From positions 1 to 22,721 of IMG/VR virus record IMGVR_UViG_3300030099_003975: a DNA stretch of 22,721 bases; one strand, written 5' to 3'. Below, piece after piece: positions 1 through 7,640 of this stretch. Within the stretch, counting starts at the first letter, position 1. The number at the start of each line of letters is the position of its first letter. Source of the stretch: a virus. The notes below the pieces were generated by a model. That model did not search any database, had not been told where the DNA came from, and was given only the letters and a program-made list of their open reading frames with translations. The translations under genes were made by a program, and so were the position numbers.

Positions 1-186
1 GTGCGGTTTCTTCAGCGTTGCGTAACCTTGGACAGCAGGTGTTTTGCCCTTGTATCCTGCTGCTTTACTCGCCTCGTCAACAGAACAGCCAGTAGTAAGT
101 AGTATGTCCACCAGCTTACGCTGTCTCTCATTCAGCGAAGGACGTGCCTTCGGCAGCAGGGCATTTACGTTCTGTAATTTCGGCAT
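1..186 (-). CDS. Terminase small subunit, N-terminal part (cut by window edge)
   Basis: The 62 visible residues begin MPKLQNVNALLPKARPSLNE, continue with a RQRKLVDILLTTGCSVDEAS segment, and then AAGYKG and a final LKKP. This is the usual layout of a phage small terminase DNA-binding domain: a basic 'RQ(R/K)xLVxxL' helix, a helix-turn-helix with 'EAxxxAGY', and a 'LxKPxV' ending. The family recognises packaging DNA and recruits the large ATPase subunit. The start is ATG 186; an in-frame TAA lies about eleven codons upstream, so no long extension is possible. No clear Shine-Dalgarno sequence is visible. The gene points off the left edge, where a large terminase would be expected next. Assignment rests on motif resemblance only. 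Confidence 0.72.
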   Translation of the reverse strand, partial: MPKLQNVNALLPKARPSLNERQRKLVDILLTTGCSVDEASKAAGYKGKTPAVQGYATLKKPH

Positions 187-213: not shown

Positions 214-243
214 GATAGAAACACATGGCGTTCTATGTGTCAA
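214..243 (-). promoter_or_regulatory. Candidate promoter for the terminase gene
   Basis: Reading the minus strand, TTGACA (243-238) is followed after 18 nt by TCTATC (219-214). The -35 is a perfect consensus; the -10 is poor. A 6-bp inverted repeat (ACACAT/ATGTGT) lies in the spacer and could be an operator. The rest of the 187-345 gap shows no ORF with a ribosome binding site. TTGACA in a related CTTGACA context also occurs in both palindromic cores further right. Confidence 0.3.
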
Positions 244-331: not shown

Positions 332-352
332 AAGCTAAGACGAGCTTAGCTT
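332..352. repeat. Perfect 8-bp stem hairpin at the end of gene A
   Basis: AAGCTAAG (332-339) pairs with CTTAGCTT (345-352) around the 5-nt loop 340-344. The right arm contains the TAA stop codon of the 79-aa minus-strand gene. No U-run follows on either strand, so this is a weak candidate for an intrinsic terminator. It may instead be a processing or mRNA-stability hairpin between gene A and the terminase gene. Confidence 0.45.
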
Positions 353-585
353 TCTAGATAATCAAGCAGTTTTTGTCTCAAGGAGACATCTGTAAATCGA
401 CCAGTCTCACCTTCAAATCGAATACTGTCGTATTCGTTTTCGGTTACGCCTGATTCGATGTAAAACTGCTTGAGTGAATGACCTCGTTCTAATCGAATGT
501 ACTCAAACAGCCTCACATGTAGTTTATAGTAACCGACTTTCTTTGCTCTATCGTATCTAACTTCTATTACATTTATACCTGCCAT
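346..585 (-). CDS. Gene A: 79-aa protein of unknown function, first gene of the leftward side
   Basis: Translation from ATG 585 begins MAGINVIEVRYDRAKKVGYY and ends QKLLDYLES. I do not recognise the family. The protein is charged, with no signal peptide or membrane segment. The longer frame running from 663 is not used as the start because GGAGG sits 6 nt before ATG 585, an excellent ribosome binding site, whereas the upstream ATG has none and would read through the palindrome. The gene precedes the terminase gene in the same orientation, with a 160-nt gap, and is the first leftward gene from the divergent control region, so a regulatory role is possible but unproven. It faces a decayed inverted copy of itself (756-957) across a 32-bp palindromic core, which is its most notable property. 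Confidence 0.65.
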   Translation of the reverse strand: MAGINVIEVRYDRAKKVGYYKLHVRLFEYIRLERGHSLKQFYIESGVTENEYDSIRFEGETGRFTDVSLRQKLLDYLES

Positions 586-755
586 TGTAGCCTCCATTAT
601 TTGTATTAAAATTAAACTGCGAATACCGCATAGCGACAATCCGATTATGTTGTCAAGGAGCAAAGCAAAGCGTACCTTGACAACAAATAATCGAGATTGT
701 GCAGTATTCGGCAGAAGTTTAATTTTACCAATACAAATTAAATGGAAGGTTACCT
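586..755. repeat. Palindromic leader of gene A with 32-bp core (core 651-682)
   Basis: The core is TGTCAAGG - 16 nt - CCTTGACA, so it presents a TTGACA hexamer outward on each strand. On either side the leaders are mirror images with small gaps: TAAAATTAAAC (607-617) against its exact complement (717-727), then TTTGTATT-like sequence, then a mirrored ribosome-binding region, ATGGAGG before ATG 585 on the minus strand and ATGGAAGG before ATG 756 on the plus strand. On the gene A side a weak -10 (TATGCG) lies 18 nt from TTGACA. The core could be a divergent -35 pair, an operator or a recombination site. Confidence 0.75.
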
Positions 756-957
756 ATGCAGGAATATAAATAGTAGAAGTTACGATACATGGCAAAGAAA
801 ACTCGGTTGCATTACATGTGGCTGTACCTGAGTACATTCTAGATAGAACGAATGAACGATTAGCTAGTTTTACTTGAATCAAAACCGAATAGGATACGCT
901 ATGCGTATTCATTTGACGATGAGGCGACAGCGAAAAAGATTGACTCCCAATCATAAT
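756..957 (+). pseudogene. Copy A': decayed inverted copy of gene A
   Basis: The plus strand from ATG 756 aligns with gene A read on the minus strand. Shared stretches include GCAAAGAAA.TCGGTT, TACATGTG.GGCTGT, TGAGTACATTC and AGTTTTAC..GAATCA, separated by small insertions and deletions. In frame the copy stops after five codons (TAG at 771-773), and the aligned frame is broken several times more, so it cannot encode the 79-aa protein. Homology fades near 925-957, where the decayed copy of gene B begins from the other side. The 101-aa frame at 874-1179 spans this junction and is not considered a gene. Confidence 0.72.
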
Positions 958-1492
958 GCTTTTTGTCTATTGAGAAGTCTACTCGTAATGGATTACTCTG
1001 CTAACATCGTCAATGAGATTCTTATCCAAACACCTGAGAAGTTAGCTTTGGAGCTGTCTGCCTCATCGACATGCCCTTATCTGTATTGCTCTTTCAACTC
1101 TCTGAATATATCTAAGATTTGCATTCACTTTCCAAAACCCAGCTATTCTGTCGAGGGCAGAACTAGCCATCTTGTTTAGTCTGCTTTAGATAAAGACAGT
1201 TTCTGGTCCGAATGGTGAATACATCCTAAGAGCCAGTAGCGGCTCTCTTTTGCTCCTCTATAATTGAGCTTTGTCTAAAGCTGATATTGTGATAGCGAAC
1301 AGCTTAAAGCCCACTTAGACATCATTCCTAACTTCGTATGCCACAGCCTCGTTCGGTCGTTTCAGCGAAGCTGTAACGAAAATAAGGATTTGTTGAGCCA
1401 GACTATCTCGAATGCCATAACTAACCTATTTGACCTCGATAAACCAGAGCATATTTATCTTTTATACCAATAATTTTCGTGGTGGCAGACAT
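958..1492 (-). pseudogene. Copy B': decayed inverted copy of gene B
   Basis: Read on the minus strand from ATG 1492, this aligns with gene B over its entire length. Long shared runs include GCATACGAAGTT, TCGCTATCACAAT, TTAGACAAAGC-like and GAGCAATAC. The match continues past the stop codon of gene B into ACGAGT..(A/C)TTCTC..GACAAAAAG(G)CA. The start keeps an adjacent AGGAGG, but the frame stops after 23 codons (TAG) and carries many indels, some of them 6-nt deletions. So it is a pseudogene or a non-coding transcript, not a protein gene. A consensus-like promoter (1534-1563) still points into it. Confidence 0.78.
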
Positions 1493-1651
1493 CCTCCTCT
1501 CGCATAAATGTCTTTATATTAACTTTTTTGCGGAGTATAGGTCAGTCGAATTTTCGGTGTCAAGGAGCACAGCGAACCATCCCTTGACACGAAAATGTCG
1601 CTGACCGCCTTCGGCCTCCGCAAGTTAATATAAACATTTATGGAGATTATT
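1493..1651. repeat. Palindromic leader of gene B with 32-bp core (core 1558-1589)
   Basis: The core is again TGTCAAGG - 16 nt - CCTTGACA, matching core A at 27 of 32 positions by direct count. The mirror arms hold ATATTAACTT (1516-1525) against AAGTTAATAT (1622-1631), both centred exactly on the core, then CATAAATG (1503-1510) against CATTTATG (1635-1642). The gene A and gene B leaders also resemble each other (TGTCGCT, then GCA..GTT.AAT, then ATGGAG). All four leader arms therefore look like relatives of one promoter/leader module. Confidence 0.78.
1534..1563 (-). promoter_or_regulatory. Consensus-like sigma-70 promoter pointing into copy B'
   Basis: On the minus strand TTGACA (1563-1558) and TATACT (1539-1534) are separated by 18 nt. 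This is the best -35/-10 pair I see in the control region. It reads toward the broken copy B', not toward an intact gene. The mirror position on the gene B side has TTGACA (1584-1589) but GCCTTC or CCTTCG where the -10 should be, so the intact gene lacks an obvious matching -10. Confidence 0.5.
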
Positions 1652-2149
1652 ATGTCTACACCAGAAAATTATATAAAAGATAAAATATCCTCAATCGAGG
1701 ATCAAATAGGAAGTTATGGCAATACTCGTTTGTCTGGCTCAAATCCTTATTTGACTGAGGCTGATGAGACAGCATACGAAGTTGGAATGATTGTCAAAGA
1801 TGAACTTCAAGCTGTAATCACTCGCTATCACAATGCACAACATCAGCTAGACAAAGCAAATCAAATTCTAGAGGAGGCGAGGGCAAAGAGAGACCGCACA
1901 GGTTCTAACTCTGTATTCACTCAATCGGAACTAGAAACTATATCTAAAGCTAGACAAACTAAAGATGGAGTTCCTGCATTCCTCGAAAGAATATCTTGGA
2001 AAGTAAAAGCAAACCTTGATATCTTCGAGAGTTTCAATGAGCAATACAAAACAGATAAGGTGTCGATTGAGGCATACATTCCTAAAGCTAAGATATCTTC
2101 TCAAGCATTTGGTAAGAATCTAAACATTGACGCAATGTTAGCTGAGTAA
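1652..2149 (+). CDS. Gene B: 165-aa hydrophilic, helical protein of unknown function
   Basis: Translation from ATG 1652 begins MSTPENYIKDKISSIEDQIG and ends NIDAMLAE. An in-frame ATG at 1640 lies within the ribosome binding region (GGAG at 1642-1645), so 1652 is the better start. The protein is soluble and charged, with predicted helices and coiled-coil-like heptads around residues 55-75 (QLDKANQILEEARAKRD). I recognise no family. It is the first rightward gene after the control region, so early expression is inferred. A hairpin with a U-rich tail follows the stop. It is the intact partner of the inverted copy B'. Homology to B' crosses the stop codon, and the intact frame against a broken copy suggests selection on this protein. 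Confidence 0.7.
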   Translation: MSTPENYIKDKISSIEDQIGSYGNTRLSGSNPYLTEADETAYEVGMIVKDELQAVITRYHNAQHQLDKANQILEEARAKRDRTGSNSVFTQSELETISKARQTKDGVPAFLERISWKVKANLDIFESFNEQYKTDKVSIEAYIPKAKISSQAFGKNLNIDAMLAE

Positions 2150-2162
2150 TCTTTACGAGTTA

Positions 2163-2191
2163 GCCTTCTCGACAAAAAGGCATTTATTTTT
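2163..2191 (+). terminator. Possible weak intrinsic terminator after gene B
   Basis: GCCTT (2163-2167) pairs with AAGGC (2177-2181) around a 9-nt loop and is followed by ATTTATTTTT. The stem is short. Copy B' keeps a related but weaker version at 958-985, with AAAAAGCA following a CTTCTC stretch. It may attenuate rather than stop transcription into the rest of the early operon. Confidence 0.35.
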
Positions 2192-2267: not shown

Positions 2268-2325
2268 AAGTTCTTTCTTTTTTTTCTCTCCTTTTGGGCG
2301 AGAGAGAAAAAAAAACCAAGAACTT
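2268..2325. repeat. Long imperfect hairpin upstream of the 44-aa gene
   Basis: AAGTTCTT (2268-2275) pairs with AAGAACTT (2318-2325). Inside it a run of eight T (2278-2285) faces nine A (2307-2315), and CTCTC (2286-2290) faces GAGAG (2302-2306), leaving a loop of 11 nt. The stem is about 21 bp with small bulges. In RNA it would be a stable leader structure ending about 20 nt before the start codon at 2347, a candidate RNase III site or attenuator. There is no external U-run like that of a standard terminator. Confidence 0.55.
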
Positions 2326-5108: not shown

Positions 5109-5311
5109 TGAAGGACAACAAGACAGAACTAGTTAGAAAACATCTAGTAAAAAAAGGACAGATAACAACTTGGGAAGCAATCACAAAATACAGAGCAACT
5201 AGATTGTCGGATATTATCTATCGATTACGTAATGATGGTTGGAGTATTATGAGTGAGATGCATAAAGATAAAGATGGTATGCGATATGCCATCTATCATT
5301 TACAGGAGTAA
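5108..5311 (+). CDS. Small winged-helix DNA-binding protein
   Basis: The 67-residue protein has the layout of phage winged helix-turn-helix proteins: 'VRKHLVKKGQITTWEAITKY' (about residues 9-28), a recognition region 'RATRLSDIIYRLRNDGWSI', and a wing with 'DKDGMRYAIYHL'. In this family 'L..G.IT.wEAi..Y...RLsd.I..LR..G..I' is characteristic. GGAGG lies 5 nt before ATG 5108, overlapping the upstream stop. A role in regulating phage genes or replication is inferred; the target is unknown. Confidence 0.7.
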   Translation: MKDNKTELVRKHLVKKGQITTWEAITKYRATRLSDIIYRLRNDGWSIMSEMHKDKDGMRYAIYHLQE

Positions 5312-5314
5312 TAC

Positions 5315-5389
5315 ATGAAAGAAAATATAGGTTGGATAGTAACCTTTGTATTTCTTGCTGTCGTATGGGTAGTGGTGATAGCACAATGA
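5315..5389 (+). CDS. 24-aa single-pass membrane peptide
   Basis: The peptide begins MKENIGWIVTFVFLAVVWVV and has one hydrophobic segment from Ile5 to Ala23. AGGAG is 6 nt before ATG 5315. Its stop overlaps the start of the Xre-type gene as ATGA at 5386-5389, which argues that it is translated and coupled to that gene. Function unknown; a regulatory leader peptide is one option. Confidence 0.5.
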   Translation: MKENIGWIVTFVFLAVVWVVVIAQ

Positions 5390-6818: not shown

Positions 6819-7245
6819 GACAACTAACTATACAAAAGAACTTATTGATAATTTTAAAACCAAATATAAATTATCTGGTAGTGATTTTTGGGAACTTAAC
6901 AGAGGTGGTAGAGAGTTAATAATTATCAAACATAATGCAGTCGAAAGAATTGCTATGCAGGAGAATATGTCCTGGACTTTGACTATTGAAAACTTTGCAC
7001 CTGATGTTGTAGTCAAATGTCGTGCTACATGGAAAGATAATCAAATTGAATCATTTGGTGAATGTACACCACAAAACAATAAGAACTCTTTTCCATATGC
7101 TATGGCAGAGAAACGTGCAGTAGATAGATGTGTGTTAAAATTATTAAATGCACATGCATATATCTATTCAAGTAGTGAGTCAGATGATTTTAAAGAACCA
7201 AAAGAATCTAAGGAAGAACAATTAATAAGTAGAGGTGAAAAATAA
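6811..7245 (+). CDS. Candidate single-strand annealing protein
   Basis: The 144-aa protein has 'KYKLSGSDFWELNRGGRELI' near residues 18-37, a beta-rich middle ('MSWTLTIENFAPDVVVKCRA') and 'FPYAMAEKRAVDRCVLKLL' at residues 94-112. An A(E/T)KRA(x)DR-helix near the end is typical of Rad52/Erf-like phage annealing proteins and of related helper proteins. It lies between an exonuclease and SSB, which is the usual place for one. The C-terminus is charged and disordered. The start overlaps the nuclease gene by 8 nt. Function is inferred from motif and context; the fold is unconfirmed. Confidence 0.55.
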   Translation: MSKTTNYTKELIDNFKTKYKLSGSDFWELNRGGRELIIIKHNAVERIAMQENMSWTLTIENFAPDVVVKCRATWKDNQIESFGECTPQNNKNSFPYAMAEKRAVDRCVLKLLNAHAYIYSSSESDDFKEPKESKEEQLISRGEK

Positions 7246-7640
7246 TGTATAACAAAATAACATTGATAGGAAGATTAGGTAGAGATGTAGAGTCTAAAAC
7301 TTCTAGTGGTGGTACTAAATACTGGAGATTTAGTATTGCTACTAATGAATGGATTAAATCAAAAGATATGGAAGAGACAACTTGGCATAACATCACATGC
7401 TTTAATGATTTTATTGGTAGACAATTAGATGATAAAGGTAAAGCTGGTACGTTGCTTTATATAGAAGGTAAACAGCAATACAGTACTTACACTAATAAAG
7501 ATAATCAAGAAGTAACTGTTGGTCAGGTAGTATTAGATAAGTTTAATTCTGTTTGTCATATCATGGAAAGGTCAACACCTAAAACTACAGGTAATGTAAA
7601 AAAAGATGATGATGAATTTAATGATGATATGCCATTTTAG
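7245..7640 (+). CDS. ssb: Single-stranded DNA-binding protein
   Basis: The 131-aa protein begins MYNKITLIGRLGRDVE, the classic SSB OB-fold start, followed by 'WRFSIATNEWI', 'TTWHNITCFN', 'TLLYIEGKQQYSTY' and 'GQVVLDKF'. The C-terminus ends DDDEFNDDMPF, the acidic tip with terminal hydrophobics that binds partner proteins. SSB coats single-stranded DNA in replication and recombination. The start shares a base with the preceding stop (TAATG), with GAGGTG upstream. Confidence 0.92.
   Translation: MYNKITLIGRLGRDVESKTSSGGTKYWRFSIATNEWIKSKDMEETTWHNITCFNDFIGRQLDDKGKAGTLLYIEGKQQYSTYTNKDNQEVTVGQVVLDKFNSVCHIMERSTPKTTGNVKKDDDEFNDDMPF

Follow-up and report, generated by a model that had tools for sequence, protein, structure and literature searches.

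Hairpins that govern transcription or that persist in coding DNA have been described in several systems. The Frpo/ssi promoters of conjugative plasmids (PMC11541004) resemble the locus reported here in that one strand folds into an imperfect hairpin, which here would place the -35 in duplex, and in that the first gene follows the element; a switch by DNA state is proposed in both cases, and the phage studied here encodes its own SSB (7245-7640). In contrast, the present locus belongs to a dsDNA phage, and its putative promoter has arms that extend over a whole gene. The early promoters of phage N4, which are read by a virion RNA polymerase and require a C(GNA)G loop on the template strand (PMC4496689), are also phage hairpin promoters with a possible link to supercoiling and SSB, and template-strand C(GNA)G loops occur in some of the cores described below. 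However, the N4 hairpins are short-stemmed and are served by a giant polymerase of their own, whereas sigma70-like boxes and gene-length arms are found here. Template switching creates and maintains hairpins (PMC8794818), and the hairpins reported here could likewise have been made and kept paired via arm-to-arm copying; those described are short, whereas here there are hundreds of pairs and the gaps are conserved between lineages. Finally, the coding palindromes of Nematomorpha mitochondria (PMC6649704) are, as here, long inverted repeats in protein-coding DNA that have been kept in evolution, but both of their arms code and match perfectly, whereas here one arm is non-coding and the match is imperfect.

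Our search of open-licence papers recovered promoters in hairpin form, template-switch hairpins and palindromes in coding DNA, and no gene-length mirror arm like those reported here. The control-region hairpins of phages known to us are short. Here the pairing spans whole protein-coding genes, the arms carry matched changes across lineages, and a homologous core stands before unrelated genes. The conserved locus appears to be undescribed, whatever its mechanism. If the arms are functional, they would constitute a new kind of gene control through DNA state; if they are not, the locus would show that template switching shapes hairpins on the kilobase scale in nature.

The window analyzed here is the whole stretch of 22,721 nucleotides of record IMGVR_UViG_3300030099_003975. 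The original prediction, that genes A and B each face a non-coding inverted copy (A' and B') in the order A - core - A' - B' - core - B, was borne out. Each gene pairs with its copy across a palindromic core, and the two units form giant imperfect hairpins, or rods. Reverse-complement alignment of the halves scored 252 for rod A and 601 for rod B, compared to 107.5 and 160.5 for the best of 300 dinucleotide shuffles; when only the coding parts were aligned, scores were 153 vs 83 for A and 473 vs 142 for B. With stricter scoring, rod A spanned 311-1020 (208, best shuffle 32) and rod B 922-2216 (518, best shuffle 35), and the arms were about 91% identical outside gaps. Single-strand folds were 15-36 SD below shuffles on both strands, and these alignment and fold scores ruled out a chance origin of the mirroring. 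Small indels were about as frequent as substitutions, and neither A' nor B' can encode the protein of its gene because of stops and frame-breaking indels. As had been noted, the match of gene B continues beyond its stop codon, through the terminator-like hairpin at 2163-2190. The layout held, but the border between A' and B', first placed at 957/958, lies nearer 917/918, because the B unit of a relative, L001, starts from 918; the outer A' pairs are weaker.

At the left end of the window, the terminase small subunit gene (TerS; 1-186, minus strand, cut at the window start; PF03592 / phrog_51) is 94% identical to the TerS of L001 over the shared 62 aa. It is preceded by the terminase promoter hairpin (163-313), which holds a sigma70-type promoter in its loop (TTGACA at 238-243 and TTCTAT at 215-220, minus strand). 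In its stem, the 5' leader and the first TerS codons are paired with upstream DNA, a weak mirroring of 163-229 with 251-313 to the left of A. Gene A (346-585, minus strand) is an open ORF of 79 aa without a known family, with no match in Pfam, PHROGs, NCBIfam, PADLOC or phages. Core A (599-736, plus strand) is a structured DNA module on the gene A template strand with a base helix, a 3-bp mini-hairpin (CGC-ATA-GCG, 627-635), a central helix and an unpaired linker (DNA fold z -7.6). The gene A mirror arm, A' (737-917), is non-coding and is missing from L001.

The gene B mirror arm, B' (918-1507), is also non-coding, includes the mirrored terminator (~957-992), and carries an inserted hairpin, CGTTTCAGCGAAGCTGTAACG (1358-1378, plus strand), which is found at the same position in the relative L016 with a different stem sequence. 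Core B (1508-1639, minus strand) is a structured DNA module on the gene B template strand; it has a mini-hairpin, GCC-GAA-GGC, at 1607-1615, and in its DNA fold (z -8.4) the TATA of the -10 is unpaired. This -10 belongs to a mirror-arm promoter, TTGACA-18-TATACT (1534-1563, minus strand; 11/12). Both cores share TGTCAAGGAGC..CCTTGACA (651-687 and 1558-1594). Gene B (1652-2149, plus strand) is an open ORF of 165 aa without a known family, found in two lineages only. Its predicted structure is all-helical (pLDDT 75), and a fold search with that structure gave no match. The terminator-like hairpin that follows it, GCCTTCTCGACAAAAAGGCATTTATTTTT (2163-2190, plus strand), is mirrored too and has a similar sequence 3' of gene C in L026 and L028 (blastn of 2157-2190 vs L026, 91%). 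Family and fold searches gave nothing useful on the function of either gene; one PADLOC match to LmuB (E 0.0015) was weak and was judged a helical-coil match. Neither A, B nor the first 8 kb matched anything in the phage GenBank collection, and the host genomes contained no relative of gene B.

A recent dead duplication or an assembly artifact would agree with mirror arms that are non-coding and carry many small indels resembling sequencing errors, and the original prediction had spoken of decayed copies and perhaps a recent remnant. However, the phage from which L015, L016 and L017 come has a gene B with about 81% DNA identity, and L016 and L017 contain gene B with its full mirror arm around a different apex. 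The same arm was recovered in contigs from several metagenomes as well as in this lineage, about 20% diverged. Nor are A' and B' unrelated intact genes: they hold no matching ORFs, and B' of L016 is non-coding too. L016/L017 and L001 contradict recent decay or artifact, as do 26 shared indels, lineage-specific matched substitutions and cores that belong to one structured family around other genes, and we find this explanation barely credible. Simple decay after a recent duplication does not explain the divergence between each gene and its mirror copy.

Across the B unit (918-2182), L001 differed from the window at 1 of 1265 nt. Divergence was higher outside it, with 11 of the following 155 nt changed and about 20% in the TerS region; element A, present in the window, is missing in L001. 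A mobile hairpin unit spreading as one block would leave such a pattern. However, ordinary homologous exchange accounts for it, and neither a transposase nor a target duplication nor a second location was seen. The locus always adjoined TerS wherever TerS was present, and we regard a mobile unit as very unlikely. In L001, the place of element A, flanked by the terminase promoter hairpin on one side and the B unit on the other, is taken by another imperfect palindrome (5215-5320).

Gene B and B' from the window and L016 lineages were compared in a four-way alignment, which represents only two independent B lineages. Gap events common to both B' arms numbered 26, and most others were lineage-specific. 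At 36 columns B and B' were identical inside each genome and different between genomes; the swapped pattern was found at 0 columns. The consensus fold of the whole B rod (RNAalifold) contained 354 pairs, 49 of which had changed on both sides. Matched changes were also seen between the close relatives L023 and L024, as in AAAGCCCGCAGGGCTTT to AAAGTCCGCAGGACTTT. Conserved differences between the arms limited copied tracts around the covarying columns to 3-29 nt. These comparisons favor single compensatory changes over tract copying as the likelier source of the covariation in the B arms.

Template switching is the main rival to the structure-dependent promoter proposed below. It holds that the replicating strand can fold back at a short palindromic core with the promoter and so copy the gene into the upstream side, that the copy drifts and is refreshed in short patches by later switches, and that only the core is selected. 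Besides being a known maker and keeper of hairpins (PMC8794818), this process would agree with a mirror whose extent differs between loci, being a few codons in some and a whole gene in others, and with TerS starts that are mirrored separately in the window, L001 and L016. It also agrees with the normal synonymous rate of gene B: divergence at fourfold sites was 0.39 compared to about 0.44 in other genes and was not slowed, and therefore pairing seems to constrain B little, with B' following B. However, copying should erase gaps, yet 26 indels are common to two lineages; the copied tracts are restricted as above; and the B rod stops just past the terminator in both lineages. We consider template switching a possible but somewhat doubtful explanation. 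Because relatives show that the structure is of old standing and has stayed paired, it is more likely to be a functional element than dead DNA; the first suspicion of a functional role was, in our judgment, right.

The terminase promoter stem co-varied among 8 phages beyond shuffles and slid controls, with 91% of cells paired and 10 of 13 pairs changed on both sides, and its inner pairs changed without G.U intermediates. One-sided changes in the arms were mostly not of the G.U type, which argues against an RNA, and G.U-type mismatches showed no consistent enrichment on either strand (window 26/44, L016 29/26). Rods that act as RNA, whether by a read-through rod that hides or exposes the gene leader, by RNase III cleavage or by antisense control, would account for extreme RNA folds (z -15 to -36), for co-varying stems, and for the slight folding advantage of the template-strand RNA at B and C. 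Against this stand the G.U results, the absence of Rfam matches at the curated cut-off in the window, L016 and L026, and the position of the TerS promoter within its loop, from which a transcript would be without the upstream arm. An RNA role is thus improbable, though not negligibly so. Together with the strand bias of the triloops described below, the sequence changes give moderate support to pairing that acts at the DNA level, and RNA-level pairing is less likely.

Other versions of the locus hold other genes. In L023, L024, L026 and L028 gene C is present, with mirroring limited to the leader and first codons; no homology between genes B and C was detected by hhalign. Further versions were found in L065/L069 (C2), L039/L066 (D) and L019 (E; by eye). 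A covariance model trained on gene-C loci only, from other phages, was used to search 171 kb. It matched core A (599-736, plus strand) with 75.8 bits (E 5.5e-12), core B (1508-1639, minus strand) with 39.4 bits (E 6e-5) and the L016 core with 51.3 bits; the 171 kb held no further matches except weak reverse-strand echoes of two training loci. All main matches lay on the template strand of the adjacent gene. Thirteen core pairs had changed on both sides, a number reached in 1 of 500 shuffles and also beyond that of slid controls. Two core-motif matches in genome contigs look like chance.

Folded as DNA, five core types have a base helix, a 3-bp mini-hairpin on the gene arm, a central helix and an apex, with a 3-4 nt unpaired mirror-arm linker beside TATACT, CAGTAT, TAGTAT, TATTAT or TATTCT. 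In the L016 core, both the -10 and the 3-bp mini-hairpin are missing from these positions. The 3-nt loops are GAA in core B (3-bp stem), ATA in core A and AAA in L016. Among 19 triloop hairpins in the cores, 11 were C(GNA)G on the template strand and 0 on the sense strand, these 11 all coming from gene-C loci and not all being independent; elsewhere, on either strand, C(GNA)G made up 11 of 114 triloop hairpins. C(GNA)G loops with stems of at least 4 bp were found in gene-C loci only. PF00940, the single-subunit virion RNA polymerase family, had no match in five records, a weak test in which the control was silent and the records may be partial.

The core with its mini-hairpin junction stands before the first gene (A, B or C), and the stem extends outward over the leader, part of the gene or all of it. 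Only in A and B are the whole gene and terminator paired with a non-coding mirror arm; the mirror is partial for genes C, D and TerS, and therefore a whole-gene arm is not required. Taken together, these data identify a structured promoter element that is old and conserved in an uncultured phage group, where it marks the boundary between late and early genes; its arms cover anything between a few codons and an entire transcription unit.

All cores that were folded as DNA formed imperfect hairpins, and a good -35/-10 pair was present in window B only, being weak or absent elsewhere. The best promoter of core B was that of the mirror arm (12.8 vs 7.9; shuffle 95%, 9.2), and its unpaired TATA lies opposite the mini-hairpin in the fold. 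Mirror-arm promoters were weak outside window B, with weaker hexamers at the corresponding place in gene-C loci. The placement of this promoter and the Frpo precedent (PMC11541004) suggest a structure-dependent promoter that would be switched by DNA state, like Frpo or N4, with the mirror arm as the missing second strand. We put this forward tentatively, as plausible but short of probable; it is weakened because a dsDNA phage has no obvious need of an ssDNA stage.

As ordinary linear duplex, the locus has no good sigma70 promoter on the gene side, and the B mirror-arm promoter points away from gene B. Once single-stranded, or extruded from supercoiled DNA, the template strand of the gene would fold back, and the same promoter would then be templated by gene B. 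The mirror arm would replace the missing non-template strand, with a duplex -35 and a -10-like hexamer beside the unpaired linker opposite the mini-hairpin. The gene arm would be the template for RNA polymerase, which could reach the terminator on duplex DNA. The gene would in this way be switched on via DNA state with a whole-gene second strand built in, and small gaps and mismatches may protect the palindrome against cutting or deletion. These steps, from folding to transcription, we infer. Alternatively, the mirror-arm promoter in dsDNA could simply drive leftward transcription towards TerS. The structure-dependent promoter may also be taken further, to a self-complementary transcription unit in which a single strand folds into an expressible gene, read only if its template strand is single-stranded or extruded, with early expression acting as a sensor of DNA state; we regard this extension as unlikely.

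Several other sequences were noted during the search. The TGTCAAGG motif alone did not serve as a definition of the element, since the unrelated viral contigs L006-L013 have the motif without a large rod. In two of these contigs, both from unrelated phages, L010 (7338-7367) and L013 (7300-7336), the motif overlaps a -35 box: a TGTCAAGGAGC..CCTTGACA palindrome covers part of the -35 in a sigma70 promoter close to consensus and is perhaps a common operator. Rod-like peaks in L045, L052, L060, L067 and L071 were repeats in structural genes rather than control regions. The control region before the unrelated gene E in L019 (4070-4295) contains two repeats of a GCGAGAACG..CGTTCGTGGC hairpin. A T/A-rich hairpin, AAGTTCTTTCTTTTTTTTCTCTC..GAGAGAGAAAAAAAAACCAAGAACTT, lies 3' of gene B in the window (2268-2325), with similar ones in L001 and L016. 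A non-coding stretch of the window at ~2690-2880 had no tRNA, tmRNA or Rfam match; it is strongly conserved in L016, L019, L023 and L026, contains a T-arm-like GTGGGTTTGAATCCCAC and a co-varying stem, and is a candidate for a new structured RNA.
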